Source of the DNA: Terebella lapidaria
Taxonomy: Eukaryota; Annelida; Polychaeta; Terebellida; Terebellidae
Direction: 5' to 3'
DNA length: 64,000 bases
NCBI GenBank assembly: GCA_949152475.1
Contig: OX424568.1
Span: 18,451,667-18,515,666 of the forward strand
Below the pieces are notes generated by a model. It searched no databases and was not told the origin of the DNA. It worked only from the letters and a program-made list of their open reading frames with translations. Below are positions 14,290 through 39,329 of the stretch, piece by piece (position 1 is the stretch's first letter; each line of letters begins with the position of its first letter). The translations under genes and the position numbers were made by a program.

Positions 14290-17200
14290 GAATGCACACA
14301 ACTCAGTAACAAACACGCATCGCAGCACATAGTGAGTAATGACACAACGTGTAACCATGGAAACGACACTCAGTAGCAGCACACAGTGAGACATAACAAA
14401 ACATGTAACCGTGGAAACGACACTCAGTAGCAAATACACAGTGAGTTATGATACAACGTGTAACCATGGAAACGACACTCAGTAGCAGCACACAGTGAGA
14501 CATGACAAAACATGAAACCATGGAAACGACATTCAGTAGCAATTACACAGTGAGTTATGATACAACATGAAGCCATGGAAACGAGACTCAGTAGCAGCAC
14601 ACAGTGAGACATAACAAAACATGTAACCGTGGAAACGAACACTCAGTAGCAATTACACAGTGAGTTATGATACAACGTGTAACCATGGAAACGACACTCA
14701 GTAGCAGCACACAGTGAGACATGACAAAACATGAAGCCATGGAAACGACACTCAGTAGCAGCACACAGTGAGTCATGATACAACAGGCGACAGTGAAAAT
14801 GGCACTCAGTAGCTAAACATAGTGAGTCATGATACAACATATAACCATGGTAATGACATTAAGTAGCAATACACTGAGTCATGATACAACATGTAACCAT
14901 GGTAATGACACTCAGTAGCAATACACAGTGAGTCATGATACAACAGGTGACAGTGAAAATGGCACTCAGTAGCTAAACCTAGTGAGTCATGATACAACAT
15001 ATAACCATGGTAATGACATTAAGTAGCAATACACTGAGTCATGATACAACATGTGGCAGTGAAAATGACACTCAGTAGCTGTACACAGTGAGTCATGATA
15101 CATGTGGCAGTGAAAATGACACTCAGTAGCTGTACATATTGAGTCATGATACAACATATAACCATGGTAATGACATTAAGTAGCAATACACAGTGAGTCA
15201 TGATACAACATGTGGCAGTGAAAATGACACTCAGTAGCTGTACACAGTGAGTCATGATACAACATGTGGCAGTGAAAATGACACTCAGTAGCTGCACACA
15301 GTGAGTCAAGATACAACATATAACCATGCTAATGACACTCAGTAGAAATACAGAGTGAGTCATGACAACATATAACCATGCTAATGACACTCATGATACA
15401 ACATGTAACCATGGTAATGACACTCACTAGCAATACACAGTGAGTCATGACGACATATAACCATGCTAATGACACTCATGATACAACATGTAACCATGGT
15501 AATGACACTCAGTAGCAATACGGAGTGAGTAATGATACAACATATAACCATGGTAATGACACTCAGTAGCAATACACAGTGAGTCAAGACAACATATAAC
15601 CATGGTAATGACACTCAGTAGCAATACACAGTGAGTCATGACAACATATAACCATGCTAATGACACTCATGATACAACATGTAACCATGGTAATGACACT
15701 CAGTAGCAATACAGAGTGAGTAATGATACAACATATAACCATGGTAATGACACTCAGTAGCAATACACAGTGAGTCAAGACAACATATAACCATGCTAAT
15801 GACACTCAGTAGCAATACACAGTGAGTCATGACAACATATAACCATGCTAATGACACTCATGATACAACATGTAACCATGGTAATGACACTCAGTAGCAA
15901 TACACAGTGAGTCAAGACAACATATAACCATGCTAATGACACTCATGATACAACATGTAACCATGGTAATGACACTCAGTAGCAATACACAGTGAGTCAT
16001 GATACAACATATAACCATGCTATGACACTCAGTAGCAATACACAGTGAGTCATGACAACATATAACCATGCTAATGACACTCATGATACAACATGTAACC
16101 ATGGTAATGACACTCAGTAGCAATACACAGTGAGTCATGACAACATATAACCATGCTAATGACACTCATGATACAACATATAACCATGCTAATGACACTC
16201 ATGATACAACATATAACCATGCTAATGACACTCAGTAGCAATACACATTGAGTCATGACAACATATAACCATGCTAATGACACTCATGATACAACATATA
16301 ACCATGCTAATGACACTCATGATACAACATATAACCATGCTAATGACACTCAGTAGCAATACACAGTGAGTCAAGACAACATATAACCATGCTAATGACA
16401 CTCAGTAGCAATACACAGTGAGTCATGACAACATATAACCATGCTAATGACACTCATGATACAACATGTAACCATGGTAATGACACTCAGTAGCAATACA
16501 CAGTGAGTCATGATACAACATATAACCATGCTAATGACACTCAGTAGCAATACACAGTGAGTCATGATACAACATATAACCATGCTAATGACACTCATGA
16601 TACAACATGTAACCATGGTAATGTCATTCAGTAGCAATACACAGTGAGTCATGATACAACATACAACCATGCTATGACACTCAGTAGCAATACACAGTGA
16701 GTCATGACAACATATAACCATGCTAATGACACTCATGATACAACATGTAACCATGGTAATGACACTCAGTAGCAATACACAGTGAGTCATGATACAACAT
16801 ATAACCATGCTATGACACTCAGTAGCAATACACAGTGAGTCATGACAACATATAACCATGCTAATGACACTCATGATACAACATGTAACCATGGTAATGA
16901 CACTCAGTAGCAATACACAGTGAGTCATGACAACATATAACCATGCTAATGACACTCATGATACAACATATAACCATGCTAATGACACTCATGATACAAC
17001 ATATAACCATGCTAATGACACTCAGTAGCAATACACATTGAGTCATGACAACATATAACCATGCTAATGACACTCATGATACAACATATAACCATGCTAA
17101 TGACACTCATGATACAACATATAACCATGCTAATGACACTCAGTAGCAATACACAGTGAGTCAAGACAACATATAACCATGCTAATGACACTCAGTAGCA

Positions 17201-19880
17201 ATACACAGTGAGTCATGACAACATATAACCATGCTAATGACACTCATGATACAACATGTAACCATGGTAATGACACTCAGTAGCAATACACTGAGTCATG
17301 ATACAACATATAACCATGCTAATGACACTCAGTAGCAATACACATTGAGTCATGACAACATATAACCATGCTAATGACACTCATGATACAACATATAACC
17401 ATGCTAATGACACTCATGATACAACATATAACCATGCTAATGACACTCAGTAGCAATACACAGTGAGTCAAGACAACATATAACCATGCTAATGACACTC
17501 AGTAGCAATACACAGTGAGTCATGACAACATATAACCATGCTAATGACACTCATGATACAACATGTAACCATGGTAATGACACTCAGTAGCAATACACTG
17601 AGTCATGATACAACATATAACCATGCTAATGACACTCATGATACAACATGTAACCATGGTAATGACACTCAGTAGCAATACACAGTGAGTCATGACAACA
17701 TATAACCATGCTAATGACACTCATGATACAACATATAACCATGCTAATGACACTCATGATACAACATATAACCATGCTAATGACACTCAGTAGCAATACA
17801 CATTGAGTCATGACAACATATAACCATGCTAATGACACTCATGATACAACATATAACCATGCTAATGACACTCATGATACAACATATAACCATGCTAATG
17901 ACACTCAGTAGCAATACACAGTGAGTCAAGACAACATATAACCATGGTAATGACACTCAGCAGTAATACACTGTGAGTTACAGTACAACATGTAACCATG
18001 GTAATGACACTCATGATACAACATGTAACCATGGTAATGACACTCAGTAGCAATACACTGAGTCATGATACAACATATAACCATGCTAATGACACTCATG
18101 ATACAACATATAACCATGCTAATGACACTCAGTAGCAATACACATTGAGTCATGACAACATATAACCATGCTAATGACACTCATGATACAACATATAACC
18201 ATGCTAATGACACTCATGATACAACATATAACCATGCTAATGACACTCAGTAGCAATACACAGTGAGTCAAGACAACATATAACCATGCTAATGACACTC
18301 AGTAGCAATACACAGTGAGTCATGACAACATATAACCATGCTAATGACACTCATGATACAACATGTAACCATGGTAATGACACTCAGTAGCAATACACTG
18401 AGTCATGATACAACATATAACCATGCTAATGACACTCAGTAGCAATACACAGTGAGTCATGATACAACATATAACCATGCTAATGACACTCATGATACAA
18501 CATGTAACCATGGTAATGTCACTCAGTAGCAATACACAGTGAGTCATGACAACATATAACCATGCTAATGACACTCATGATACAACATGTAACCATGGTA
18601 ATGACACTCAGTAGCAATACACAGTGAGTCATGATACGAGATGTAATCATGATAATGACAATCAGTAGTAATACACTGTGAGTCATAGTACAACATGTAA
18701 CCATGGTAATGACACTCAGTAGTAATACACAGTGAGTCATGATACAACATGTAACCATGGTAATGACGCTCAGCAGTAATACACTGTGAGTCATAGTACA
18801 ACATGTAACCATGGTAATGACACTCAGCAGTAATACACTGTGAGTTACAGTACAACATGTAACCATGGTAATGACACTCAGCAGTAATACACTGTGAGTC
18901 ATGATACAACATGTAACCATGGTAATGACACTCAGCAGTAATACACTGTGAGTCATACTACAACATGTAACCATGGTAATGACACTCAGTAGTAATACAC
19001 TGTGAGTCATAGTACAACATGTAACCATGGTAATGACACTCAGCAGTAATACACTGTGAGTCATACTACAACATGTAACCCTGGTAATGACACTCAGTAG
19101 TAATACACTGTGAGTCATACTACAACATTTAACCATGGTAATGACACTCAGTAGTAATACACTGTGAGTCATAGTACAACATGTAACCATGGTAATGACA
19201 CTCAGCAGTAATACACTGTGAGTCATGATACAACATGTGACAGTGAAAATGACATTCAGTAGCTACACAGAGTGAGTCATGATAGAACATGTAACCATGG
19301 TAATGACACTCAGTAGCAATACACAGTGAGTCATGATACAACATGTGACAGTGAAAATGACACTCAGTAGCTACACATAGTGAGTTATAATACAACATAT
19401 AACCAGGGTAATGACACTCATTAGTAATGCACAGTGAGTCATGATACAACATGTAACCATAAAAATGACAGTCAGTAGTAGTATGCAGTGAGTCATGATA
19501 CATGTAACCATGGTAATGACACTCAGAAGTAATACACGGTGAGTCGTAATACATGTTACCATGGTAATGACACTCAGTAGGAATACACAGTGAGTCATGA
19601 TACAACATATATAACCATGGTAATGACACTCAGAAGTAATACACGGTGAGTCATAATACAACATGTTACCATGGTAATGACACTCAGTAGTAATACACAG
19701 TGAGTCATAATACAACATGTAACCATGGAAATGAGAGTCAGAAGTAATACGCAGTGAGTCATAATACAACATGTAACCATGGAAATGAGTCAGAAGTAAT
19801 ACGCAGTGAGTCATAATACATGCCACCATGGAAATAACACACATTAGCTGCACCTATTGAGTCAAGATACAACATATAAC
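14290..19880. repeat. 5.6-kb minisatellite, 54-bp unit with 33-bp short variant
   Basis: The full unit is about 54 bp and contains ATGACACTCAGTAGCAATAC, then CAGTGAGTCATGATACAAC, then a (TG/TA)TAACCATG(G/C)TA segment. A 33-bp variant lacks the CAGTAGCAATACACAGTGAGT stretch. In the middle (about 15360-18600) the long and short units alternate in longer patterns: the stretches near 16071-16283, 16861-17073 and 17626-17838 are near copies of each other. The left end (14290-14800) has a different 108-bp pattern with CAGTAGCAGCACACAGTGAG. Since 54 is divisible by three, the minus strand shows long open frames with an 18-residue period; these are not genes. Almost every full unit holds TGAGTCA. Confidence 0.95.
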
Positions 19881-20250
19881 CATATAACATACAGTCCTGA
19901 TAGTCTGAGCACAAAACAGGTACACGAGTCACGTATCAAAGTGTGTTTTATTGTATGAGGCTATTCATAGTAATTTCCACAAGATAATAGTTTGATTCAC
20001 TACACTAAAAGCTCAACCCTGATGCAGTAAGTGGCCATGGACCCACTGAGATATAGCACATCTACATATGAGTATACAATTTTTAATACTTTTCACAATT
20101 TCCACTGAATGAAATAATATTCAGCATTATATTCACATTGTACAAATTGAACGTATATGACGATCATCATAATAAAATGGAGGCTTCGTCGAGAACATTG
20201 CCAAGATATGTATCACTGTATATGTGAATTGTATACGTGGATCTAGAGCT
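19881..20250 (-). other. Probable 3' flank of the NADAR gene (pre-insertion)
   Basis: Removing the 12.2-kb transposon joins this stretch directly to the stop codon of the NADAR-fusion ORF. On the minus strand an AATAAAA word lies at about 19945-19951, roughly 300 bp past that stop codon, a plausible polyadenylation signal. It has no coding potential. Confidence 0.4.
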
Positions 20251-20256
20251 CTATTT
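20251..20256. repeat. 6-bp target duplication CTATTT (left)
   Basis: CTATTT immediately precedes the TACGGAGCCCC terminus and recurs at 32442-32447 directly after the inverted terminus. It defines the exact insertion site. Confidence 0.93.
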
Positions 20257-20745
20257 TACGGAGCCCCTAAGGGGACATGGTGGGAATTCTGAGATAATTA
20301 TTTCGTTCCCTCGAAATAGATTTCGTTCCCTCGAAATATATATCGTACCCTCGAAATAGATTTCGTTTGAACGAAAAGAGATTTCGTTCCCTCGAAATAG
20401 ATTTCGTATGAATGAAAAGAGATTTCGTTCGAACGAAAAGAGATTTCGTTCCCTCGAAATAGATTTCATATGAACGAAAAGAGATTTCATTCTCTCGAAA
20501 TAGATTTCGTTCCCTCGCAAAAGATTTCGTTCCCACGAAATAGATTTCGTTCCCTCGAAATAGATTTCGTTTGAACGAAAAAAGATTTTGTTCCCTCGAA
20601 ATATATTTCGTATGAACGAAAAGAGATTTCGTTCGAACGAAATAGATTTCGTTCCCTCGAAAAAGATTTCGTTCCCACGAAATAAATTTCGTTCCCTCGA
20701 AATAGATTTCGTTTGAAAGAAAAAAAAATCGTTTCCATGAAATGA
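20257..20745 (+). repeat. Left TIR of the IS3EU-like element, palindromic sub-repeats
   Basis: After a 45-bp unique tip containing the palindrome CCCCTAAGGGG, the TIR is a tandem array of units of about 20 bp. Two types alternate: ATTTCGTTCCCTCGAAATAG and ATTTCGTTCGAACGAAAAGAG-like units containing the perfect 16-bp palindrome TTTCGTTCGAACGAAA. The first 325 bp or so are identical by eye to the right TIR. The period of about two helical turns suggests repeated protein-binding sites, probably for the transposase (inference). Confidence 0.92.
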
Positions 20746-20754
20746 TATTGTGTT

Positions 20755-20818
20755 CAACCGGAGACGGAGCTCATTTTCGAGTAGTGTAGTGTACTGACTA
20801 GATCGTGTACAGATCTAT
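20755..20818 (+). promoter_or_regulatory. Possible 5' UTR exon end and donor for the HECT gene
   Basis: A strong donor word, GTAAGTATG, begins at 20819 just inside the left TIR. The first coding exon is preceded by a good acceptor (TTTGTTTTCAG, ending 21750), so a non-coding first exon here with the promoter in the TIR is plausible. No TATA box is evident. Confidence 0.4.
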
Positions 20819-21775
20819 GTAAGTATGTTAAATTATGTACATCTATGTGTATCTGGCTTTGACAGTTCAATTGATATATTTGTGTGCCAGTGTGCTTGAC
20901 CTACGTACACGGAGCCCTGCTAACACAGCCTGACTTACTTCATAGTCAATATGTCAACAGAAAACTGCAGCCGTGTCGTGCTTCTGCGTGAACAAATCGG
21001 AATATTCGTGGTAGCAAACATTTTAACGGTTTATCTTTATTGTTTGTTGCAAGTAGGGACCTACTAGTAATGATATGGCTTAGCTGTTGCACTCCACCAA
21101 CCAGCCATTCTTTCATCTTTTTATTCCTTACGTACAAATAACCTTGACAACACTGACAAGCCCCGTTTCCATGAGTGACTTACCAGATCCATATACTAGT
21201 ACAGTGTATTTCTACGTGCATGTAAACCGACTGATACCGACAGCGACATTCGACGGATTTTGTTACATTGTTCTATATTTATTCGGAGTTTAACATTTGA
21301 GGTCATGGGAAAGGAATTTCGGGGTATTGTCACTGAAGCTATAGGATCGTTGGTATTGTTCTTGACGCCGTGCATTGATGGGAAATATATTCACTTCTCC
21401 AAACGGATCACAACAACAATTATAGGAATTCACTGATTATATTGGGATATGAGTACTCATAGGCTATATAGTAAATCATATAGGGGACCTGCGTTAACAT
21501 GTTCTATATTTGTTGTCACACGATTCGGAACATAGGATGAATGTAGGCCATATTTTTTAATGGTTACAAGTGCGAGATGATATAGGTCTACTTGAAATTC
21601 ACCCGATTAAAATTGCGGATATAAAATAACGCTGGCATTAAAATTGCGGATATAAAATAATTGTAATTTCTACTTCAGCAGGTATGTGTAGTAATATTCC
21701 TTATTGTGACGGTAGCCTGGCTATCTACATGTTTTTATTTTTGTTTTCAGAAGACCGGTGACACGTATTACTAGT

Positions 21776-24700
21776 ATGTCATTGAGAGAATTCCTGATAA
21801 GCCGCGGGGTTGCGGAAGAAGCTATAAATCGTATGGAGGATGACAATGTATGTATACAATGTACTGAGTACTGTCATAGACTCTGCTTTTAGGCCTATGG
21901 TAGATCTACTGTGAATGTGGTGTGTTTAAAGTATCCACCCAGTCCGAAGAAGCAAAGATAGGCCTGTCAAACATACTAGACCTTCCAACTTGAGTAACAT
22001 ATTATTTAAGGGACAACATACACCTGAATAATATCATATTGTATCAGTGATTTTCAAATACATTTAACCTCGGGAGTTCCAATTAGAGTACGATGTCAGA
22101 GCTGCTTCGCGGAAGCATGTGTATATGTGGTCATTTTGGCAGATCGACGAGGAAGTACTGGTTTTAATGGCGGCAGATTCGGAACAATTATCGAAGTACC
22201 TTCCAAGCTATGGGCACCGAATCGCCGCTGTTGCCTACGCAACTCGAAAACAACGCGAACTGCAGAACAAAACGAAAGAAAAAAAAGACCTCATCGACCG
22301 TCTGAAGGACGAACATAACAGGCGATCAGCACCACAGAAAGGGAATCAGAACGCCAGAAGGCTTGACAGACGCGTCGAGGTGGGTTGGCTCGAGCAAACT
22401 GATCTGTGTTTCACACAGATCAAAAGCCAACGTGGCGGCGGTACACGGCAGTTACGAGTCGAACGCGACACTCCAATCAGCGAGGTTGAACACGAAGCGA
22501 AACATCTCTTTTTCCCGAATGAAGAGTCTCAACTGGGTCACATCAAGGACTTTGATTGCCACATGGCAGACTTCTCTCGGAAGGCATTGAGCAAAGAGAC
22601 GGTTGGAGAGATGTACGACAGCACGAAGGTCAAGCTTCTGAAGTTGTACTTAGTCATCAAGCGGAAAACTCGTACCGACGACGCGGATAAACCAGAACGC
22701 AAGAAACACATTAAAAAACTACAGATTCTCAAGAAACACCAGAAAGTGCCAAACATCTCTGACTCTGAGGAGGATACACTTTCTAACATCTCTGGAATAG
22801 AAGATATAGCTGAGTCTGCGCAGGAAACGCCTCCTGGCGCCATGCAAGAACGACCGCAGCTACTACTCGAAGCAGCAAAACTGTCTGGCATAGTACCATT
22901 CGCGGGGCCCGGCATTCCCAACGACAGCGACGGAGACATCGAGCCGATGACGCGGCGATGTCGCAGAAGTGAGACGCCCGGTACACCAGTCAATCCAGGT
23001 CGGTAGGGAAAAGTGATGAAAAGAATAATTGTGGAAAATGAACGTCATATTTTGATACTATTTAATGCTTGGATCTACTTTGAAATTTTCTAGGACCGGG
23101 GGGGAAAATCGACACGACTACCCCTGTGTCTGGGGTAACGCCACAGTTCGTGAACGTGACACCCAGTGGGGAGGTGGCTTTCCGGCTTCCACCTGATATG
23201 CAAAATATTGATGTCTTGATTGGCGAATTTTGCCGTGGGTATGTACATTGTATTAGTCTTACAGAGCAATATTATGTTAGGCAATGTAGCCTACCCACAG
23301 CTGAGAGGAGGGAAACGGCCAAATTCACATAAAACTCTTGGGAATTTTCAACAAACTATATACGGCGAAATTTAAATGCTTAATTTTGTTCTGAAATCAT
23401 ACCGTAACTTATTAAGGCAAATGCCTCCATGGTTTTGTCAGGATTTTGTTTTCTTCCGGCGTTTTCAATTCCGCGCCGAGTCATCCTTGTGGCTCCCTAC
23501 AGGTATATCTCAGAAACGGTGCGTCATAGAGCAAAACGGACGTTATTTTCAGACTCATGGCACTAGTGAAACATGCCTAGGGGGTATTATGGATGAACTT
23601 GACCCGAGCTAATATTTTTGTGCTGGGTGGGTATACCTTTTATGTTTTCATGCCATACATCGAAATGTCTCCAAGGCATCTTTAGGCCTTGACGTGTAGT
23701 TCATATGATAGTCTACATGTACTGCACTTTGGTGCTTCAGTGTTCTTCTTGAAAGTTTGATACCCCCTGTGCATTAGTTCACAACTACTTTGAGCATATA
23801 TAACTCCTTGATTTGGACCGTCCAGTATTCCTGATGACGTCCCGGAACCCCAGAATCACAGCCGGTCTGAGCAAAATGGTGCTACCCACATCACTAACGA
23901 ACCATCAGGATCAGGCAGTTCAGGCCATAACACGGCGGCATTCGGGTACGATGTGACTAGAAGTTCTACAATTGTTGTTTATAATTGTATGGTGTAAATA
24001 GTAGTAAGGCCAAAAAAAATTTCTGTTTTTGTCCCACCGCCTGTGTTCAAAGGCAGCCTCCTGGATTTTTTTATTTGCGATTCTCAAATAAAAAATAAAA
24101 AGTGTCCCCGCCCCTATTTTGAGGATATTGAATGATCGAGAATGATTGAAACTTTCTACGCGTGAACGTGGAAACCTACATCTTTCTACGTTCGAACGTG
24201 GTAGGTTTTAAAGTTTCTACGTGCGAACGTGAAAGCATATAATGTTTCCACGTGTGAACGTGGTAGCTTTGGACTTTCTACGTGTGAACGTGGAAGCCTA
24301 AAACCTTTCTACGTGCGAACGTGATAAGTTTCAAAGTTACCACGTGCGAACGTGATAGCGATAAATGCTTCCACGTGCGAACGTGGTAGCTTCGAACTTT
24401 CTACGTTCGAACGTGCAAGGTTTTGACTAGAAAAAACACCAAATTTTTGTCCCGCACATGTCACCTATGGGCTTCCATAAGACAAAGACGCTACCAGTTT
24501 TCAAAAACAGTTACTCCATGTGGGTACATGCATGTAGTAATACGTATAAAATTGTGATCACGAATTGATTTACTATATATTTCCTCATGTATACTCCAAT
24601 GGACCTATTATTAGATATAACGGTTCTCCACAAATACTCATCATTGAGATATATTATCAACTGACGGTTTTTGATAATAATACTACTAGTACACAGAATC

Positions 24701-25994
24701 ATCCTGTCTGTGCTGATTGCCAGGGTGATGGCACACCAGTAGTACCAAGGTGTCCGGCGAAGAGCTTTCAAGCCCAAATAAATCAAGCCTCTAGAAATGA
24801 AATCATTAAAGTCATGGTACACATGATTTCAATTCTAAAGCCTTGATTTATTTGGGCTTGAATGCGTCTGTGTGCAAGTGTTTTTTCAATCAATCAATCA
24901 ATGAAAATAATTGTCATTTCATGCGTGTGAAATGTCGTGCCACCAAAAATAAAAAGAAAAAGTGCCCCCCTACCCAATTTTCTCTTGAGCTGAGGACGGT
25001 ATTTTTTTGCAAAATAAAAAATTAAAACTAAAAAAATAAAAAGTCCCTTCCTACCCAGTTTTGAAAAAAATAGGAGGACGAGAAACAGATAATTATTTTT
25101 TTTAGGCCTAAGAGTGAATTATTCAACTACCGGAATCAACTATTTTCCATCAGCATATATATGGGTATGTTTCAATCGTACAGTGAACGATGAATGGGAT
25201 AAATCAAGAAAAGTGCTTTGATTTTACAGTTCGTCCGGACTCATGCATGAGACAAGCAAAGTGTTGCTGGATCCAGAGTGAGTACTGTACATATTCCCCG
25301 TTCATGCAACAGCATGCATTGACATGTGCATGCATCTGGCCGATGTTATGGTGGCCTACTGGTCGTCATATAAATTGGACCTTGGAGGAAAATTCATAAC
25401 AATTGTTGTAGCTTGGACCTTTTTGGTTTATCTAAAGGTGTTTTCCAGTTTGGAATATTTAACAGCTGTAGGATCTAATGTACCTGGAGGGTCATATTAT
25501 AGGGTTATTGTTTTTTGTTCTTTTTACAATATTGGTATTTATGCCCGCGGTCCAAGTTCTTTCAAAAGCCGGACGTTAAGCGGAGGGTTGTTGGAAGAAC
25601 TTAGACCAAGGGCATAAAAACCAATGTTGTGCAATAACCCGTACATGTAAATCATATGGCAATTATAAGCACAGTTCAATGCGATACTCTTGAAATTTGT
25701 GAAGAATACCACGAATCAACAACTTTTGTTGGTGCAGGGCGAAGTGTGGAATTTACCACCCTTTGATAAGATCTTAAACCTGCGACAGGTGGTGGGTAGG
25801 CACTGCATTTTATGTATGCGGCTTCAATTGTGGAATCTATCATTTCCTTGTTTTCGTCTTATTTTTCCGAAAAGTCTGGATGGGGAAGTAGAGATCTTCT
25901 CAGTTGAAGACGACCCAGTAGCGACAAGTCATGAAAGTATCACAGTTACGAACAGGCGCAGGTATGTTCTTCTTCTTGGTCTATATTATAGTTG

Positions 25995-26071
<77 letters not shown>

Positions 26072-28134
26072 GCCTCAACATGAGCTTACAACAGGTCATA
26101 CGTCACCATGCCGAGAACGCCCTGCTGGGATACAACGTTGATCCATTAGACTACGGGATAGAAACGGGACTACGGGATACGCGCAGGGGTATCCGTTTGG
26201 AGGTCCGAAGAAGATATGTCCTACAAGATGCACTGCGGATGTTGAGTGTCCTTGGATTCCAGCTGCAAAGGAACCCGGAGCTTTTGAGAAAACCACTCGA
26301 TGTCAGGTTTAAGGGCGAACCTGGACAGGACGAAGGCGGACCCAGAAGAGAATTTGCTTCTCTTCTTACCGAAGATCTGGCAACGTCACACTACTTCGAG
26401 GGTCCACCCAACCGTCGCTGCTTTGCGCATGACCTGGCTGCGCTTAACAGCAGAACGTACTACAACATCGGGCTTCTGGTTGCTCTCACAGTCTTGCAAG
26501 GTGGACCAGGTATGCCTCTCCTGGCGCCACCTGTAGCCGATTACATCCTCTACGGGGAGATGCGGGAAATCGTACTGGATGATGTGTCGGACTCTGAGTT
26601 GAAAGAAAAGATTGCAGAGGTGAGATGCTTCTATACATTTTATATCATAATTAATGTGCAGAATGCTTCCCATGTTTTCCGTTTAGATTACATGTACTAT
26701 CACTTAAATCGGAATCAGACATATCATGTCTTCTGTCGTCAGATCTGTGCAATACGGGACGATGTTGTGCTACGAAGGAGAATTGACACGATAATTCCCC
26801 AGAGATTCGAGATCGGCATAAGAAAGCCAACCCTCTCTTTCGTCTGCGAAGACATCCCCGGAATAAGACACGGCCTAATGATACATTCCGTTCTTTGGAA
26901 GTCAAAAGCAGAAATCGATCAGTTCTGTGAAGGTAAATATAAAGCCATATGTAATACATAGTGATATAGATAAAAAAACCTATTAACAGGAAGCAAAGCT
27001 AAAATACACACGATAATACCACACGCCTACTTTATATTGTTTACTTTAGAATAAATTGATGCCCATATATCTTGCTGTTTCGAACGGAAAGTTTCATCTT
27101 TTAAGTTTAAATCATTAATCATGTTTTGCTTTATGAAATGTTTTGCCCCCCCCCCCCCCCCCGCAATATACCTTTTAACTGAAAGTATTATGGAATTTTT
27201 CTAGGGTTTATTCAGACTAAATTCCCAAAAGTATAAATTCTGAACTAATGATTGGATAAATATCTGAATCAGGTAATAACCAATCTGAAATTCCGTACTA
27301 AATTTTCAATGTCGTTGGACATACATGGAAGAGGTGTATCAAGTCTTCAATGAAATCTGGGCAATATTCACAAGATATAGATAAAAAAAAACTTCTAAAT
27401 ACTGAGATACTGATAAGCGAAATGATTTAGGCATACAATAATTATTCATAGGTCGTGCGAAACGTAATTTTTCACTTTTATTAGGGAAAATGGTAATTAA
27501 TTGTAGCTTACTCTCCTATTTGTGTTGCATAGGCCTCAGTTCACTTGGCGTTTTGGAGCTCATGAAACGCGAGGGCGAAACATGCAGGCCTCTCCTTGTA
27601 CACAGCGACACAGAACTTACAGCTCGTGAGCTCGAGGATATAGTCCGGTTCACGTACGATTTAGAAGGGACAACGAGGAGAGAGGTAGAGCAGGAGATAG
27701 CAGTCGGGTGGTCCTTATTCCTCTTGGCAGTCGAAGGTACACTAGTAGCAATATTCACATAAGATAATGGATTCAATCGATGCACTGACTACATTCTAAT
27801 GATCTCAAAATAATTCCTGTTTCTATAGCCGTGTTTTGTTGATCACTAATTGTTCCACACAGGTGGGAACATCCCCCTGCTGCCAGGTGGGGTGAAGCTG
27901 ACGCTACCACTCGTGTTGATGTGGATAACTGGCGCATCTCGAATACCAGCAGAAGGCTTCCAAGAACAGCCAACAATTGTGGTTGATCATGAAGAAAAGA
28001 ATCGACTTCCGCATGTGAACACTTGCAGTTGTAAACTCACTCTGCCAGCGCGAAAAGAGTTAACCGATACCGAGACCATAATTCCATTCATGATCAATGT
28101 CATTGGCAACAGTTTCTTTTTCGGCAAAGCCTAA
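21776..28134 (+). CDS. SAM-like/HECT ubiquitin ligase (G2E3-like), transposon cargo
   Basis: Reassembled by eye as ten exons: 21776-21847, 22143-22998, 23094-23238, 23826-23945, 25230-25277, 25875-25961, 26073-26619, 26743-26932, 27533-27736 and 27863-28134. Total is 2,541 nt, 846 aa, with all introns GT-AG and phases consistent. Residues 1-60 resemble the SAM-like N-terminus of multicopy G2E3-like proteins. Residues about 100-195 hold a conserved block with RGGGTR (121-126) and an LFFP segment, perhaps a beta-grasp fold. An acidic, Ser/Pro-rich linker follows to about residue 440. From about 445 to the end is a HECT domain: RFKGEPGQDEGGPRREF near 520-538, then WITGASRIPAEGF and the NTC motif with catalytic Cys811. 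HECT enzymes form a ubiquitin thioester on this cysteine and pass it to a substrate lysine. The small fifth and sixth exons (25230-25277, 25875-25961) are the least certain. The 123-bp intron 26620-26742 has no stop and could be retained. Confidence 0.88.
24150..24420. repeat. Tandem palindromic repeat in HECT intron 4
   Basis: About eight units of roughly 32 bp contain TTTCTACGTGCGAACGTGGTAG or variants. Each unit's core is a palindrome (CACGTGCGAACGTG, ACGTTCGAACGT). The CGTTCGAACG core is shared with the TIR sub-repeats, though the flanks differ. Confidence 0.85.
24767..24862. repeat. 96-bp hairpin MITE in HECT intron 4
   Basis: Arms TTCAAGCCCAAATAAATCAA and its inverted copy (ending GGGCTTGAA) extend about 40 bp each with a short loop. 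No clear target duplication was seen. Confidence 0.8.
25502..25640. repeat. 139-bp hairpin MITE in HECT intron 5
   Basis: Termini GGGTTATTG and CAATAACCC, with inverted arms that also include TTTATGCCC...GGTC(C/T)AAGTTCTT. Arms are about 55 bp, imperfect. No target duplication was evident. Confidence 0.75.
25999..26071. repeat. (ATT)n microsatellite in HECT intron 6
   Basis: More than 20 ATT units lie directly before the acceptor of the main HECT exon (AG at 26071-26072). The tract has no stop in the gene's frame, so an unspliced transcript would read a poly-tyrosine run; splicing removes it. Confidence 0.9.
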
Positions 28135-28673
28135 ATCCATGGCACAAAAAAAGAGATCATGATGTGTAGGCCCTAGGTCATGACGTGTGGGCTGTCCATA
28201 GTATTGTGGCCTGGTTGTAATTATAGTTGGTGTGATGTAATCTGTGGTTAATTTGACTACTAGATCTAGTATGTTAAGTAGGATTCTGGTATTATGATCC
28301 GAAACCTCCTGGATGGAAATGTCTCTGTTATGGTATAGTTCAGTATGTCACTATGGCACTGTATTGAACGCGCATTTTGGGTTGTTGAAATGTACTGTAT
28401 GTGCCCTAAGGTAGATTATATTGTTGTTTTCTTGTTGTTAAAATGTTTACATAGGTAGATTATATGGTTCATTTTGGGTTGTTGAAAGGTTCTACACGCC
28501 GTAGATTCTATTGTTCATTTTGTTTTGTTAGAGGATACTCCACGTGTATATGTACCGTGTAATTATATGGACATGAATGTTATACGCAAATTCATGATGT
28601 TCTGCGTTATATTGATCCATGCTATGGTTTGCGATGCGAGCGCTTATCAGATTTTAGTTGTTTTATATTCTGT

Positions 28674-28679
28674 AATAAA
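28674..28679 (+). terminator. AATAAA polyadenylation signal for the HECT gene
   Basis: First canonical AATAAA downstream of the HECT stop codon, about 540 bp away, on the coding strand. Confidence 0.5.
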
Positions 28680-28751
28680 CAAAATCTGACCAAATTGAAT
28701 ATACTTTATTGGACGCATGTCTCACTCTAACTTAACTATCTTGCCAATATA

Positions 28752-29660
28752 GTTTCGAAGTTGACCAGGTGGAGTTAAAACTCACTTTGGAAGATTTTGA
28801 ATTAAAGTGTACATGTGCACGTAATGTCAAACGTTCCAGTGAAGCGGGGGATGATGATCACGTGACGAAATCTGGGCCGCTATTCGTCTGTCATCAGCTC
28901 TGCTGCCCGCCCATTGGTCAACAGCCAGCGCCAGCGATTTCTGTCGCTTCATGATAGGGCGATCTTATAGTGAGCAAAACATACTAGTTAACTGGCGCAT
29001 TCAACCCAATGTGACAGTTTGATAGACTATTGTATTGAACATCATGTGATCAATATATAGAATGACATACATGTATGGGATTGTTTTTTGCTATTTCGAC
29101 TTAAGGATCTGGTGATGGCGATATTTCAACACCTATTTGCTTGTCTAGCTCCACAACAACACTCTATCAAAATATTGCCTTGTAAACCTGGCCACTACTT
29201 CTCAAGGTTGTATTCTTCAAGTGACATATACACTTATTCCGAAATCTCACACCAAAAAAATTCATATGATGTGGTGTACCACCAAAGAGTAGAGGGTCTT
29301 TGTGAACCATAGAATCCCCCCCCCCCCTCCCTCCCAACCCCCCCAATCCCAATCCTTCCCCCCCCCCCCCCCCACACACACACACACACAACACACACAC
29401 AGACACACACTTGTATTGGCCACCGGGCTGAGAAGTGGACTTACGAAACTTAATCTCAAGGTAACATGCTCTTGTACATGCTTGGAAGTGTGTTTAGTGA
29501 ATGTCAATATACCGATTTGCGTTCAAAGCATCAACCGAGCGTCCCGCAGGTCCGCCGCAGTCCTCCACGTGCCTCAGCAAATGCCGCCGTGGACCCACTC
29601 AAACGAAAACATCCTTGGTCCCTATTCCTGACCCTGAACACTTGGAACTACAGTTGAACT
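28752..29660 (+). other. Region between the convergent genes; possible extra exons
   Basis: After an acceptor-like CAATATAG (ends 28752) lies an open stretch to about 28955 with a Cys-rich piece (LKCTCARNVK, FVCHQLCCPP). A second open stretch at about 29466-29657 is basic and Pro-rich (VRRSPPRASAN). A C-run and (CA)n tract lies at 29310-29412. I do not recognise either open piece. They may be exons of a third small gene, alternative 3' exons of the HECT gene, or noise. Confidence 0.25.
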
Positions 29661-29752
29661 GTACGCATTTACTATGAAAACATATCCGTGTTCAATCAAA
29701 ATTGGTATTCAAGTGTATGTGATTCTCAACTATCAATTCATACGTGACCGTG

Positions 29753-29758
29753 TTTATT
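29753..29758 (-). terminator. AATAAA polyadenylation signal for the integrase gene
   Basis: Minus-strand AATAAA about 360 bp beyond the integrase stop codon. Confidence 0.45.
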
Positions 29759-30118
29759 AGAGTTATACCCTAGAGTGGGCAAACATGCACAAGAAACGAA
29801 ATCAGATGTTTTGATGGTACACTGATACTGTCTGCAATCAAACTGTATAATATGTTTTTGTTCTGTTAAACCCATGTAATTGATTGTTACATTTGCTTTC
29901 CCAAGTTGAAAAAATATATAATTCCACCAACATTTCTTTGCCAGATAGATTACACCAGTCACACACGTGGGCCTATCCACAGAAAGGCCTAAACATATAC
30001 GACATATTTACATAGTCTATTTGAGAAAGCTGCTTGAAGAGTGTAGAACACACACACATGCACGCTGTTGTACATAGGCTACATTTCATACGTTAGGTCG
30101 CCTCAGTTCTTCGATTCC

Positions 30119-31741
30119 TCAGATATATTGACCAATTTCGTGCCGCAGAGCGATATACAGCCTCTTTGCCTCTGACGAGTCCTTTGGGTAGTCGGTATTG
30201 GCCTCAGCCATGATGGAACAAGAAAGATCGTGGACAACTGTGTCACATGGGATGAATTTTCTGAACTCACACTGTGGTTTACAGTCTCTGACTTCATCGG
30301 CATCCGACGCGCACAAGTAGTCTACTGTACCATAAAGTCCAGGTAAATGGTACATGACGTTCGGCCGACCAGCGGGGTTTCTTGAGTTCCGCGATGGACG
30401 AATCTTGTGAGCGTTCCACGTTTTCACTGTCTCGTCCAGATCGTTCTGCAAATAACAATGCCGGGATTACAAAAGATGTAGAATAATTTCCTATATACTC
30501 CGAACCCTGAAATATTAGCGTCCGTTCAATTTGGCGTTTTTTGCTTGTGCTGGCATATGTTGGCGACCGTTTAATTTAGCGTTGTTATCTTGCCATCATA
30601 TGTTGTGTTTAACAAATTAATATATTAACGTCCATTAGTATTAGCTTTCTAAACGAAAAGCTGAAAAAGCTAAATAAACGGGCGTTAATAATTTCCGTTT
30701 TTAGAGTGGAATAGTTTTTTTTCCAGAATAAACTGGAATAAATTTTTTCCCAAATATTTATTTTCACATTTAACCGTTTTTAATATAAATTCATAGGTTG
30801 ATTCTACCGTACATGCTCAGTTTACAGTTACAAACATGTATATAGCCTAATTGTTTTTGTATTTATTTCTAATCTATTAATGAAGCTATAGTGTACATAC
30901 ATACCTGGACCAAGTGCAAGAAACAAAATTGTATCAAATTGATGTCGAGGAAGGATCCTGTAAACTGGCCATCATCCACTAGTTGCTGGAACAAACACAT
31001 CCAAAAGTCCGTGCATTCCCTTCTAAGAAACGACCACCAATATTCGATTCTTTGATTTGCGGTACTCCGACCTTCAAGGTAACTCGACAACCCGGCCCTT
31101 CTGTCAGCACCATTTCTGCGAAAATGTCGTTGGAGTTCTTTGACCCTGCAGTTCTCCGTGCCCTTGTCTCCACGCACTATCCGAGGGAAACCGCCCCACT
31201 CCATAACCGACTCCAAATAGTACCCCGCAATCACACGTGGATTATTACTGGTGTTGTATACATTCATCCATATTATTCTGCGCGAATAGCCGTCAATGCA
31301 GCCGTTAATACAAATACCGTACCGACGTAGTTTGTCATACGAGTCCAAGTGCCATATATAATTGGGTCCTTTGCTACTATACTTTCTCCGAAGGAGTCTA
31401 CGCTTTTTTCTTTGACTGGTTCCACGAGGATCCAGAACTCCCATGATTATTCTGACGTCTTCTTTTCTACACAAAATGCCATGACACAAGCACTTTTGGT
31501 ACATCCACCTGTAGCCATGCAACTGGCCACTTTCAGTCAGCTGCTTTTCTATGAAATCAATAACTTCTTCTATATTGCAGTAACTCGTTCGCCTCAGGTC
31601 CATACGTTTAAGAATGCGCTTCAAATGGCGATCAGATATAATGATCCCATTTTCTATTGCGAGTGCAGAGCAAATATCCTTATAGGTCAAGCCTATGTTG
31701 AAATAGGCTCTGATAAGGTCATTCCGGTGTTCTGTATCCAT
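30119..31741 (-). CDS. IS3-like DDE integrase/transposase (IS3EU type)
   Basis: Two exons, 31741-30905 and 30445-30119 (donor CAG/GTATGT, acceptor TTATTTGCAG/AAC, phase 0), give 387 aa. Residues 1-52 hold a helix-turn-helix (YKDICSALA...ISDRHLKRILKRM). Residues 55-100 resemble the IS3 HTH_21 linker with the hallmark HGYRWM. The rve-type catalytic core follows: Asp133 (WHLDSYD), a secondary Asp150 (CIDGYSRR), Asp192 (RGDKGTEN) and Glu233 (STANQRIEYWW), all present. The second exon continues with the C-terminal block conserved in the animal multicopy integrase-core family (KIRPSRN, GRPNVMYHLP, LYGTVDYL). It should bind the TIRs and catalyse cut-and-paste insertion with a 6-bp staggered cut. It starts about 120 bp inside the right TIR array, so its promoter is probably in the TIR. 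An additional upstream exon cannot be excluded. Confidence 0.9.
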
Positions 31742-31859
31742 TTTAATATATATAATTCAAGCCGTGTTTATACAGTTATGCATACACGGCCTTTCTAGGC
31801 CCTATTGTCCGATATATGTCGATATGCCTTCTATTTCTGAGGGATATATTATTTCGATG

Positions 31860-32441
31860 CAATGGAATGTATTTCGATTGAACGATATCTATTTCAAGTG
31901 AACGAAATCTATTTCGAGAGAACGAAATTTTATTTCGTTCAAACGAGATTTATTTCGAGGAAACGAAATCTCTTTTCGTTCAAACGAAATCTATTTCGAG
32001 GGAACGAAATCTATTTCGAGAGAATGAAATCGGATTTCGTTCGAACGAAATCTCTTTTCGTTCATACGAAATCTATTTCGAGGGAACGAAATCTCTTTTC
32101 GTTCAAACGAAATCTCTTTTCGTTCAAACGAAATCTATTTCGAGGGAACGAAATCTATTTCGTGGGAACGAAATCTTTTGCGAGGGAACGAAATCTATTT
32201 CGAGAGAATGAAATCTCTTTTCGTTCATATGAAATCTATTTCGAGGGAACGAAATCTCTTTTCGTTCGAACGAAATCTCTTTTCATTCATACGAAATCTA
32301 TTTCGAGGGAACGAAATCTCTTTTCGTTCAAACGAAATCTATTTCGAGGGTACGATATATATTTCGAGGGAACGAAATCTATTTCGAGGGAACGAAATAA
32401 TTATCTCAGAATTCCCACCATGTCCCCTTAGGGGCTCCGTA
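31860..32441 (-). repeat. Right TIR of the IS3EU-like element
   Basis: Inverted copy of the left TIR with the same two types of palindromic sub-repeat of about 20 bp. It matches the left TIR without a visible difference over the outer 325 bp, then diverges modestly in unit order. The inner end decays gradually near 31860-31900. Confidence 0.92.
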
Positions 32442-32447
32442 CTATTT
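32442..32447. repeat. 6-bp target duplication CTATTT (right)
   Basis: Second copy of CTATTT. Read on the minus strand it is AAATAG, the last Lys codon and the TAG stop of the NADAR-fusion ORF, so both flanks of the transposon carry that stop codon. Confidence 0.93.
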
Positions 32448-33776
32448 CCTTTCCGATCGGAAGAACTCTCGTACATCAGAAAGAACTTTGCCTTGGATGT
32501 TCAGTCCAGTCCACTTGGATTGGTCAAGAATGTCACGGTGACGCAGACCCAAGCCAACGCCAAACAGTTTATCGCCACAAGCCTCTGCCACCACCTTGTC
32601 ACCAGTAGAAAGCAGCTTGTCTCTAAGTGAATCGTTCTGTGTGAACTTCGCCATAATGCCCTCTCGGAGGATACCCTCAGCCTCAGTCTTCCACTTGTCG
32701 GCGTCAAATGCCTTCACACGTCTGGCACGTCGCTTCATATCACGTGGGTCAGTCATGGCGAGTAGCTCCTCAGCAGCTGAGCTGTCACCGAACAAACAGG
32801 CCATGCGATATGTGAGGAACTGTTCAACGCAGCTGAAATCTCGTCCGTCCACATAAAACCGACAGGGGAAAAAGTTGGACAACTTGGAACCCTTTGTGAA
32901 GAAAGCTACAACGTCTGATGACTCCTTTTCACAAAGTGGGTTTTCAACACGCTCCCTAATATACTCGGGGATATGTTGGACACTGTCATGTGTGAAGGAC
33001 TGATTGTTAACACATAGTTTATCAACTTTCAAGTAGGCAGAGACCTTGGCACCAGGATTAGCAGGATCACCATCATAGGCTGCTGTGAGGTAAGGTTTCA
33101 GTACCTTTCGTCGCTCTGCAATTTCTTGTGGGAAGTCCTCCCTGATCCTGATTCCACGTTTGAGTTCCATGCGCTTGTTCCACACAGTTTTACGGTCATC
33201 ATAGCGCAGGAACTTGGCGATTATTGACCGCGGAGACTTCGCATCAGGATTTGGAGGACCAGTGGGCACACGGTGGCACCCAGCCAACTGAATGCTGCTC
33301 GGATCCAGGCCGATATCGGCGAATAGTTGCCTCATCACCTGATATGCGTTCTCAGGGCCACCATGTTCCATAACGCCGTCAAAAAACAAGTTGTTTCTCC
33401 TGCCGTAGGACTCAAGGTGCAGTATCCGTTCATGCATCTCTGACTGTTTTGCTACGGATTCTCTGAGACCACGTGTTGTGTCACAAAGGGACTGTTCCAT
33501 GGCAGTGATCTGCTTTTTTAGGGTAACGACGCCAGACTGGGCACACTCGGCAGTGGTTTGAGCATCATGTGCTGCTAAGGCAGCTTCATTGGCCTTATGT
33601 GACGATTCACTAGCTGACAACTTTGCAGCTTCTGCAATACTCCGAGCAGACTTAGCTTCTGTGAATGCTTTATTCACATCTTCACGTATAGAGTCAATGG
33701 ATAACACCAGCTTGTCAAGCTTTTCATTGATGGTTACAAGAGTAACACTGCAGTCAGAAGTGGATGGCTGATTTTT
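32442..33776 (-). CDS. LINE-ORF1-like coiled-coil/RRM protein fused to a NADAR domain
   Basis: An open frame of about 444 codons runs from 33776 to the TAG at 32444-32442. The first in-frame ATG is at 33500-33498, so either translation starts there or an upstream exon supplies the start. The N-terminal part is an Ala-rich coiled coil. The middle matches the RNA-binding part of L1-type ORF1 proteins (LHLESYGRRNNLFFDGV, GCHRVP, PRSIIAKFLRYDDRKTVW, RIREDFP, ERRKVLKPYL). The last 150 residues are a NADAR/YbiA-like domain: LSNFFPCRFYVDG, CVEQF, a KFTQND...LLSTGD block, then EACGDKLFGVGLG. NADAR enzymes act on N-glycosidic ADP-ribose-type bonds; removal of ADP-ribose from guanine is reported for the family. 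No frame break is seen. It could be ORF1 of a LINE whose ORF2 is absent, or a domesticated gene. Confidence 0.85.
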   Translation of the reverse strand, partial: KNQPSTSDCSVTLVTINEKLDKLVLSIDSIREDVNKAFTEAKSARSIAEAAKLSASESSHKANEAALAAHDAQTTAECAQSGVVTLKKQITAMEQSLCDTTRGLRESVAKQSEMHERILHLESYGRRNNLFFDGVMEHGGPENAYQVMRQLFADIGLDPSSIQLAGCHRVPTGPPNPDAKSPRSIIAKFLRYDDRKTVWNKRMELKRGIRIREDFPQEIAERRKVLKPYLTAAYDGDPANPGAKVSAYLKVDKLCVNNQSFTHDSVQHIPEYIRERVENPLCEKESSDVVAFFTKGSKLSNFFPCRFYVDGRDFSCVEQFLTYRMACLFGDSSAAEELLAMTDPRDMKRRARRVKAFDADKWKTEAEGILREGIMAKFTQNDSLRDKLLSTGDKVVAEACGDKLFGVGLGLRHRDILDQSKWTGLNIQGKVLSDVREFFRSERK

Positions 33777-35151: not shown

Positions 35152-35560
35152 CCCAGGATGTTCGTTGCGTAACCCAGTATGCGCCAACCAAACCCAGGTT
35201 TAGCGGACTGGTTCCCCAGCGTGGTGATGTAATATCGTTTTTGTGACGTGAAATGCGATGAAAATAACACCGTTTACAACAAATGAACACTGATGATTAA
35301 ATATGTGTCTGATCATAGACGTCTTCACGTCTATGGTCTGATCCACACAAAAAGTAATACGAGTCAAGAGAAAGGTGTATTTCATGATCTCCACCAAAAA
35401 GAAACATTTTACATCGTCTCATTAATAAGTCTTTGCTGATTTTCTGAAACATTGATGTTTCGGTGGGTAAACGATACTGTTCCGATTGGACAACAGTTCT
35501 GTCATGGGTGTCTCGATTAGTAAACGATATTTTATTGGAAATTGATGGCCCGTTAATGCC
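35152..35560 (+). repeat. Dispersed repeat, copy 1
   Basis: The part at about 35228-35500 (TAATATCGTTTTTGTGACGT, TGATGTTTCGGTGG) is repeated in inverted orientation at 41945-42180. The part at 35152-35222 (GGTTTAGCGGACTGGTTCCC) matches 9748-9806 inverted. No termini could be defined. Confidence 0.7.
35307..35343. repeat. 21-bp hairpin insertion with 8-bp duplication
   Basis: The 21-bp hairpin-forming ATAGACGTCTTCACGTCTATG (35315-35335) is flanked by GTCTGATC at 35307-35314 and 35336-35343. The paralogous copy on the minus strand at about 42080-42100 has a single GTCTGATC and no hairpin, giving a direct empty-site comparison. Confidence 0.85.
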
Positions 35561-35660
35561 TAAGTCACATTTGCACCGATGCCTCCTCAGATGTGGTTAC
35601 GATGCGTGAAAAGGCTGAAATTTGGCCATTTCGGTCGGTCACCCACCGAGCGCCGGAGGG

Positions 35661-37344
35661 TATGGAGTTCCACAGGCGACATACGACATACTACATACGA
35701 CATATGACATACGACATACGACATACTACATATGACATACGACATACTACATATGACATACGACATACTACATATGACATACGACATATGACATACGACA
35801 TACAACCCTAGACCGATCAACACAGTTTTCGTCATGTTAAGCAAGGCAATCAGTAAAACATCGACTTCAAAGAATAAATAAAGTTTTAATGTTTTGTGCA
35901 TGGTAAACATTCAACATGCCTTCACATAATATTAGTATATTTTATTCAATATGACGTCGATAATCTTGAGAGTTTAGAATTGAAAAAATCCATGTCACTG
36001 GACTGGGACAAACATAAGCTACTCGCAGTATTCGTCAGGTGGCAGCACAGCATACACTGCCTCAATTATGGAGTGGTTTTAGTGACATTATTGTTGGTGA
36101 TCAACATAATTGTACAAACACGGGTAAAGCCTCTTACTGTTGAAGACAAATTACAGGAATTATAATTAAAAGAATGGTGGTTTGTTGGGGATATAAATGG
36201 GAAGTAATGAAAAACGCTCATCAAAGTTGCCAATATAATACTGATTACACTATTACCGCTCCATACTTTGCCCCATTAAATATTCCTCAGATTATTGCAT
36301 ACGACGATGATTGTTTTGACGCAAATGACACTTTTAACATGTTTTAGTTTTGTTAAATCATTGAAATCAACCTATGAAGACCATCTGACGAAAACTGAGA
36401 GGTGACATACCACATGTGACATACCACATACTACATATGACATACGACATACCACCCTATATCCTTCCCATTGAAAGAATGAACTTTCTCATGGCCGCCT
36501 CAGAAGGACTGAGGCACGATGTGCAATCACTACTCAAACAGAGAAAACCACCTCAGGGATGACAAAAATTGTCACTCTCATTGAAAAAAATATATAAATA
36601 CAATATTTCACTGTTCAAAACCTCCAGGCAACTGGCGTCCTCACTATTCTGCCATGCTAAACGGTATAGCCAAATTCAATGGAATGTTTCATTGTGGATT
36701 TTTCAGATATTTTTGCACTACAAATTTGATAGGCCTACATGAAAACATGAGTCTGCTGGATACGTGTAGCTATCATTTGTTTGGATGAGGTGTGTGATAG
36801 ATCTAACATTGTATGAGTTAATTGGTATTTTGCATGTGATAAGTCATGTAGTATGTCATATGTCGTAATAATCGTATGTAATATGTCATATGTAGTATGT
36901 CATATGTAGTATGTGGTATGTCACATGTGGTATGTCGTATGTCATATGTCGTATGTCAAATGTAGTATGTCGTATGTCATATGTAGTATGTCATATGTCA
37001 TATGTCGTATGTAGTATGTCGTATGTAGTATGTCGTATGTAGTATGTCATATGTCGTATGTCATATGTAGAATTTCGTATGTAGTATGTACCATGATGTC
37101 ATACATTGGTAAGTCGCTTTCACCCTAGCCTTGAAAACAAGGCAAAAGCAGGTTGTATTTTCGGTGTTTTTTTTCGTTCACGAAAAAAAAAATCTTGAAA
37201 TACACCCTGCTTTTGCCTTGTTTTCAGGGCTACTTTCACCCTGGTCACTTTTAAGTCATATGTCGTATGTGGTATGTCGTATGTAGTATGTCGCATGTGG
37301 TATGTCGTATGTGGTATGTCGTATGTCGCCTGTGGAACTCCATA
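35661..37344. mobile_element. Fold-back element with CATACGACATA arrays, IS3EU-type ends
   Basis: The 1,684-bp element has termini TATGGAGTTCCACAGGCGAC and its exact inverted copy. The left arm continues as a CATACGACATA/CATATGACATA array to about 35802; inverted arrays occupy 36838-37090 and 37255-37325. A short left-type block lies at 36404-36455. Flanking hexamers are GGAGGG and GTAGGG (5/6 match), consistent with a 6-bp target duplication. The interior has no recognised gene. It looks like a relative, by structure only, of the elements at 7155 and 20257. Confidence 0.75.
37117..37242. repeat. 106-bp hairpin insertion with 10-bp duplication
   Basis: Arms AGCCTTGAAAACAAGGCAAA (from 37127) and the inverted copy ending at 37231-37232 form a stem of about 48 bp with a short loop. 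CTTTCACCCT flanks it on both sides (37117-37126 and 37233-37242). It sits inside the right arm of the 35661-37344 element, so it is younger. Confidence 0.85.
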
Positions 37345-37810
37345 GTAGGGTCATCCGTGACTGTCGGACAGCAATCGGACATCGTAGACACATCGGTGCC
37401 ATGGAGGCATCGGAAGAAAATAACGCAGAGTTATTTTCTTGCGGCGACCGGTGGAAAAAATGACATCGCCTGTTAATCGTTGTCAGACCTGCCGGCGACC
37501 GATCACAGCTCCTCCATGTGCCCATCGGGCGCCGAGGGGATCGACCAAATTTATCGGCCGATTGATATGAGTAGTTCACCAGGCGATCACCGCAGGGTAT
37601 CCTGTCATGCGCTGACGGATGTGCGGTGGGTGTTTTTCAGATTATTGATCGATTTTGACATACGAGACGGTCAACGCAGGGTATCATGCCAGGCACCGAG
37701 GGATGTGCGGGATGTGCTTTTCCGATATTCGGCCGATTTGTACATACGAGACGGTCACCTAGCAGTTATCTGTAGGGTACCGTGGGGTTTCCGGTAGGGC
37801 GTGATTGGTT
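37345..37810. repeat. GC-rich block with roughly 105-bp degenerate repeats
   Basis: Unlike its AT-rich surroundings. GACATACGAGACGGTCA occurs near 37657, and a variant near 37740; units share CCGAGGGATGTGCGG-like words and GGCCGATT. A related GC-rich block is at 38770-39180. No coding function recognised. Confidence 0.5.
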
Positions 37811-37969
37811 GGCCGGTCGATACCCATTATCTTATGGATAATATTTATTAATTATTTTTTGTCTATCAATTAATCTTCAATAATTATTTTTTTGTCTATT
37901 AATTTGTCTCTTAATTACTTGTCTATTAATTTTTGTCTAAGCGATTTGATAATAATTTGTATTAACTGT

Positions 37970-38740: not shown

Positions 38741-38769
38741 TCGAATAATTCTGTAATTTTGCGTGGACA

Positions 38770-39180
38770 CTTTACGCGCCATCTAATGTGTATTTGGCGG
38801 GCAACCACCGACTGCCTTTACATATCGGAGACAGACTGTCCGGCACCCGTCCGGCAATCGGCCGATGTTTCGCCCGCCAGGGAAGAACCGTCCGGACGTC
38901 AGACGGTCACCGGCCGATGCCTGCTAGGTGATTGATTGGTCTCCCGTAGGCATCAAGGTACACATTCTCCCCACATTCTTACTTATGCCGGCCGGTCAGT
39001 GAACGATGTCCGGATAGGTGTCCACCGGTGATCTGCCAATGCCCGGTGCTTTCATGACCACTTGAGAGATATGTGAAAGATACCTGAAAAAAGTTACCGG
39101 CGGCCGGAACATCGGTGAGAACCACCGATGTATTAGCATCGGCCGGCGACCGGTGCAAATGTGACCTAGGCATTAGGCTC
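38770..39180. repeat. GC-rich block related to 37345-37810
   Basis: Rich in CCGGC and GGCCGATG words (for example GGTCACCGGCCGATGC near 38907) with a composition sharply different from the flanks. No gene found. Confidence 0.45.
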
Positions 39181-39329
39181 GGTTTTTGGCTATTATTCAT
39201 TCATACTTATCATTTTTCCAACAGATGGCGTATCGCGGCTTCAACGCCAGGTGTTATCACTGTCATTCCAAGTTTGAAGACTAACCACATATTGAAGCAC
39301 TTGACAAACACTAAACCTTTTCAATGCTG

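Follow-up and report, generated by a model that had tools for sequence, protein, structure and literature searches.

Overview of the locus

We analyzed a stretch of 64,000 nucleotides from the annelid Terebella lapidaria (GenBank assembly GCA_949152475.1, contig OX424568.1, forward-strand positions 18,451,667 to 18,515,666), referred to here as the 64-kb window, in which a whole DNA transposon of 12,185 bp occupies positions 20257–32441. A single unit, bounded by a target-site duplication (TSD) and terminal inverted repeats (TIRs), encloses two genes, one encoding a transposase and reading inward from the right end, the other encoding a HECT ubiquitin ligase and reading inward from the left end. 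The two genes are convergent, the gap between them measuring about 2.0 kb, and the distance from the start codon to the gene's own element end is 1,519 bp for the HECT gene and 700 bp for the transposase gene. The features of the element, from left to right, are as follows.

20251–20256: left TSD, CTATTT, 6 bp, exact
20257–20755, plus strand: left TIR, 499 bp as aligned
21776–28134, plus strand: HECT gene, 10 exons, 846 amino acids (aa), with Cys811
21776–21847, 22143–22998, 23094–23238, 23826–23945, 25230–25277, plus strand: HECT exons 1–5
25875–25961, 26073–26619, 26743–26932, 27533–27736, 27863–28134, plus strand: HECT exons 6–10
28674–28679, plus strand: AATAAA, candidate poly-A signal, 540 bp 3' of the HECT stop codon
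30119–31741, minus strand: IS3EU-type transposase gene (integrase core), exons 31741–30905 and 30445–30119 (stop codon included), 387 aa
31920–32441, minus strand: right TIR, 522 bp as aligned, the array of the left TIR reversed
32442–32447: right TSD, CTATTT, 6 bp, exact

Ends and inverted repeats

The termini of the element are TACGG..CCGTA, and an 18-base terminal sequence, TACGGAGCCCCTAAGGGG, matches perfectly at each of them, with no further site in the window at up to three mismatches (shuffle mean 0.01). After reverse complementation, the outer 325 bp of the two TIRs are identical. An ungapped comparison over 345 positions gave six mismatches, the first of which falls at position 326, and a gapped alignment of 499 against 522 bases gave 471 identities, 28 mismatches, and 23 gap positions. 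Most of each TIR is filled with a tandem array of a near-palindromic unit of about 20 bp (ATTTCGTTCCCTCGAAATAG). A previous sequence-only reading of this DNA had described an exact 6-bp CTATTT duplication, perfect TAC...GTA inverted ends, and TIRs of about 500 bp, all of which were reproduced here.

Next to the right end, an open reading frame (ORF) of 444 aa occupies positions 32442–33776 of the minus strand, and its stop codon is covered by the right-hand TSD. Thus, the element was inserted at the end of this ORF. The ORF carries a NADAR domain at its C-terminus (expect value, E, 3e-34), and we take its middle part to resemble L1 ORF1.

The HECT gene and its product

Both exon models, that of the ten-exon HECT gene and that of the two-exon transposase gene, were derived from sequence alone, and both frames are open through all modelled exons. 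All nine HECT introns are of the GT-AG type, every exon junction is in phase, and the GC content of the exons is 0.51 versus 0.36 for the introns. In intron 6, about 24 TTA repeats (25998–26070) abut the AG of the acceptor site.

Pfam places a HECT domain at residues 774–819 of the 846-aa protein with an E of 4.4e-9, which is the sole family above the cut-off. A phmmer search of residues 443–846 against the Protein Data Bank (PDB) returned UBE3A (chain 1c4z) with an E of 2e-9 over the whole stretch. This match rests on the N-lobe, residues 483–547 (E 3.1e-7 alone); the C-lobe is aligned in order around the cysteine and is by itself not significant (E 76). Cys811 lies within the motif RLPHVNTC of the C-lobe, and the protein ends with NSFFFGKA, in which the residue at position −4 is a Phe. 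In HECT ligases, a Phe four residues from the C-terminus is needed for activity. The features of HECT membership are present, namely the catalytic-Cys motif of the C-lobe, the similarity of the N-lobe, and the Phe at −4. The intact frame, the cysteine motif, and this Phe fit an active enzyme, and the ligase gene looks complete, its domain being divergent. A single-sequence fold of exon 7, which encodes the N-lobe and is the largest exon after exon 2, gave a mean predicted local distance difference test (pLDDT) value of 37.6, too low for use.

The N-terminal part of the protein had been called SAM-like in the sequence-only reading. This label found no backing, as residues 1–201 gave no SAM match in Pfam at E up to 10, a limit at which the HMMER filters nevertheless discard most Pfam matches above 0.1. 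The best E values for residues 1–201 were 0.018 in NCBIfam, 0.064 in Pfam, and 0.65 in the PDB, with no family in PHROGs. For residues 199–442, the best E in the PDB was 0.55, and the whole-protein Pfam scan, which otherwise covers this stretch, has no match there. Residues 1–442 of the predicted protein are without a recognized domain in the Pfam and PDB searches. The other claims about this gene, that is, an 846-aa protein, ten exons joining in phase, and Cys811, were all confirmed.

G2E3 is composed of N-terminal PHD/RING-type zinc fingers and a HECT domain, and many HECT genes of fish and invertebrates are annotated as G2E3-like. The same label had been given to the present gene. Judged by domain architecture, it was not confirmed: Pfam detects no PHD or RING finger in the 846-aa protein, whose domain architecture thus differs from that of G2E3. 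According to the available text of PMC2837046, G2E3 arose after the chordate/echinoderm split and was absent from the cnidarian ancestor; within the reach of that text, this dating combined with the lack of zinc fingers argues against the G2E3 label. No word starting with "transpos" occurs in the available text of the same paper. For a hybrid sculpin, the available text of PMC5638112 reports 122 unclassified repeats whose copy number is significantly raised, and for 27 of these it names G2E3 among the blastx matches. These 27 repeats are circumstantial evidence, consistent with HECT genes being mobile in fish, and no proof of it.

The transposase gene and its product

The transposase gene consists of two exons separated by a single GT-AG intron, with a GC content of 0.46 in the exons versus 0.31 in the intron. 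Pfam rva_4 (integrase core) matches residues 121–300 with an E of 6.1e-33, above the curated cut-off. Further matches fall below their cut-offs, to Pfam rve (E 0.0037) and to the NCBIfam families IS3 (E 2.4e-6) and IS481 (E 9.8e-5), the latter two by curated thresholds. An IS3-like integrase with D133, D192, and E233 had been proposed, and these residues are indeed present; by the family pattern (DKGTEN, NQRIE), we take them to be the catalytic triad. The best PDB match of the integrase, with an E of 0.16, is not meaningful, and a single-sequence fold of its exon 1 (mean pLDDT 38.4) is too low for use.

Assignment to IS3EU and related insertions in the window

The available text of PMC10045372 describes TA..TA termini as a constant feature of complete IS3EU families and a 6-bp TSD as a usual one; that text does not separate IS3EU from GingerRoot. 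For the fungal IS3EU elements that carry a TET gene (TET+), the available text of PMC12730594 gives TAYGG..CCRTA ends, a 6-bp TSD, and TIRs of more than 30 bp. The present element displays TA..TA ends, a 6-bp TSD, and an IS3/IS481-like DDE-type transposase, and its ends, TSD length, and transposase fit the IS3EU superfamily. The IS3-like identity proposed earlier is therefore borne out, and the superfamily name IS3EU, missing from the sequence-only reading, can be added. In our assessment, 20257–32441 is almost certainly a whole IS3EU transposon with HECT cargo, and by its predicted gene content the element is structurally autonomous and complete. The earlier claim of a whole IS3-type element holding a HECT gene within one TIR/TSD unit thus stands, the SAM-like and G2E3-like labels excepted. 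The wider proposals of that reading are conjectural, namely that HECT and integrase move jointly in many copies, that G2E3-like families were seeded by a mobile ligase, and that a host repressor is the protein removed.

The window was scanned for units bounded by TAYGG..CCRTA that measure between 150 bp and 20 kb, whose terminal 14 bp match each other, and whose TSD has no more than a single mismatch. The scan yielded four units including the HECT element, none of which shows more than one mismatch in its ends. As a control, 100 shuffles within 500-bp blocks gave two hits in total at up to two mismatches; such block shuffles break up tandem repeats and hairpins, which makes the control somewhat lenient. 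The three further units are the following.

7155–9568: non-autonomous IS3EU-type element, 2,414 bp, TATGGTGGC..GCCACCATA ends, TSD GGAAAC, TIRs of short tandem repeats
35661–37344: short IS3EU-type element, 1,684 bp, TATGGAGTTCC ends, TSD GGAGGG/GTAGGG (one mismatch), with a 7-bp unit repeated in arrays
56128–56285: IS3EU-type miniature inverted-repeat transposable element, 158 bp, TACGGTGGCTC ends, TSD CATGTA

The terminal sequences of these three units differ from those of the HECT element, and they accordingly represent different families. With four units in the window, IS3EU-type insertions are common here, and one of the four bears genes. The three further insertions count for the IS3EU reading.

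Preferred and alternative explanations

The HECT gene might itself be a nested insertion. We scanned the flanks of the HECT gene (20770–21776 and 28135–30118) for a separate TIR/TSD unit and found none that was convincing. No exact 16-mer is common to both flanks. Thirteen inverted 12-mers with at most one mismatch were counted, whereas 20 shuffles gave 5.6 on average, and one of the 13 is accompanied by a 3-bp direct repeat (a weak candidate; shuffle mean 0.25). A nested insertion of the HECT gene was rejected as near chance, the raised count of inverted 12-mers notwithstanding. Another arrangement would dispense with a single transposon altogether, in that two inverted short elements flank a host segment containing the HECT gene and an old integrase. 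The abundance of short IS3EU-type elements in the window, three besides the HECT element, lends some credit to this arrangement, against which stand the exact TSD at the outer ends, the identity of the arms over 325 bp, and the presence inside of an integrase of the matching superfamily. Furthermore, neither arm was returned by the unit scan as a complete TIR/TSD unit of its own. We therefore give this arrangement hardly any chance.

Our overall reading is that of a complete IS3EU transposon whose HECT ligase gene is an accessory cargo benefiting the element, with a probability of about 0.72. This value blends our judgment on the whole IS3EU transposon with HECT cargo and that on the benefit of the accessory gene, for which, taken separately, the odds are even. 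Several observations weigh against this reading. Inverted 12-mers flanking the HECT gene exceed the shuffles to some extent; the other three IS3EU-type insertions are shorter and lack both genes (no piece of HECT or integrase by tblastn at E up to 10); and the 64-kb window contains a single copy, neither HECT nor integrase having a second match there at E <2. The single copy and the neighboring insertions devoid of a HECT gene would also suit a one-off passenger, in which a single IS3EU copy or a young family took up a host HECT gene as DNA, with its introns kept and without use to the element. The nine introns, like those of a host gene, point in the same direction; however, the integrase gene has an intron too, and the presence of introns is thus no sign of a foreign origin of the HECT gene. 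The frame of 846 codons is intact, the active-site motifs are present, and the HECT gene lies opposite to the transposase gene, as does the alpha-kinase gene in fungal TET+ IS3EU elements, all of which speak against a useless passenger, and we regard this explanation as unlikely, if still worth serious consideration. Alternatively, the ligase might limit or time transposition by ubiquitinating its own transposase rather than a host factor. Self-limitation is common among transposons, and both genes are located in one unit, the HECT start codon lying 1,519 bp and the transposase start codon 700 bp inside the respective end of the element. The interaction of ligase and transposase is hypothetical, and we consider such self-regulation improbable.

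Putative mechanism

For the preferred reading of a transposon with a beneficial ligase gene, we propose the following putative model. The transposase would bind to the arrays of about 20-bp repeats in the TIRs, excise the element, and reinsert it with a 6-bp stagger, and the ligase gene would move along with the element. The ligase, once made from the element, may ubiquitinate a nuclear protein to the benefit of the element. Its target would most likely be a host silencing or repair factor, or otherwise the transposase itself; as a claim of its own, such a host target is less likely than not. On a broader scale, HECT-bearing IS3EU elements may be a stable lineage of transposons in aquatic animals, with the mobile ligase helping them to counter silencing or repair by the host; intact and decayed copies of this lineage would then account for much of the "G2E3-like" HECT gene expansions annotated in fish, cnidarians, and other invertebrates. 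This broader view is tentative, its chances being a little short of even.

Search for relatives

We searched viral contigs with patterns from both proteins. Integrase exon 1 (276 aa) gave no pattern match, and the four pattern matches to HECT exon 7 (183 aa) were discarded, none being confirmed by tblastn. The degenerate pattern D[GDE]GGP[RS][RS]EF had no match in these contigs, and NQ[RS]IExWW had three (L001–L003). The three were rejected as chance, with no integrase match at an E of 1e-3 and weak similarity to either protein at E up to 10; by eye, their ORFs are phage-like. Among the genome contigs, a stricter pattern retrieved no relatives.

Surroundings of the element

A long minisatellite with units of 24 to 162 bp extends over 14327–19883, near the left flank of the element. 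At 35227–42174, two inverted arms (88 nt at 97% and 142 nt at 92%) are placed about 6.5 kb apart with no clear TSD, and the IS3EU-type element at 35661–37344 sits inside this pair. A short inverted repeat pair at 12368–12948, about 200 bp apart, aligns with 170 identities, 19 mismatches, and 2 gap positions, likewise with no clear TSD. On the minus strand, 45622–47346 and 60041–61861 are two related ORFs of the TRIM-NHL type with a RING domain and NHL repeats, the second of which is interrupted by a stop codon in frame. ORFs of this type, like the intron-rich genes, are in keeping with an animal genome. Rfam gave no match in the 64-kb window.

Significance and comparison with known systems

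Transposons whose enzymes can modify host molecules illustrate a way in which mobile DNA may withstand control. The TET/JBP enzymes on fungal transposons are a published example for DNA marks, their role there being a proposed one. Ubiquitin ligase cargo would extend these host-altering transposon enzymes to protein turnover, and it could help the element to persist. A transposon-borne HECT gene could also explain the large and erratic HECT gene counts of some genomes, and annotators should be cautious, as such HECT genes may be transposon cargo.

The pairing of IS3EU with HECT was not found in the literature searched; Repbase, which lay outside the search, may hold such an entry. Accessory proteins are known from other DNA transposon lineages: in the available text of PMC9587614, Kolobok lineages carry distinct ones, either nucleases or helicases. 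Kolobok is comparable in this respect and belongs to a different superfamily, and the words "ubiquitin" and "HECT" do not occur in that text. As a whole, the superfamily of the present element is known, and its HECT cargo is unusual, unreported in the literature reached, and looks complete.

Compared with the IS3EU superfamily at large, the element shares the TA..TA ends, the 6-bp TSD, the long TIRs, and the IS3/IS481-like DDE integrase, and differs in carrying a HECT ligase gene. Compared with the HECT E3 ligases, UBE3A among them, its product shares the LP..NTC motif of the C-lobe and an N-lobe similar to that of UBE3A, whereas it is divergent, transposon-borne, and without a recognized domain in residues 1–442. 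The closest layout is that of the fungal elements. According to the available text of PMC12730594, all TET+ IS3EU families have the TET/JBP gene between a transposase gene and an alpha-kinase gene, the latter two being oppositely oriented; cargo in the IS3EU superfamily is thus already known. The present element resembles them in its TAYGG..CCRTA termini, its 6-bp TSD, and a gene opposite to the transposase, and differs in that this second gene encodes a HECT ligase instead of a kinase or dioxygenase and that the host is an animal instead of a fungus. The fungal accessory genes and the opposed two-gene layout provide circumstantial support, by analogy, for a HECT ligase gene that may serve the transposon carrying it.

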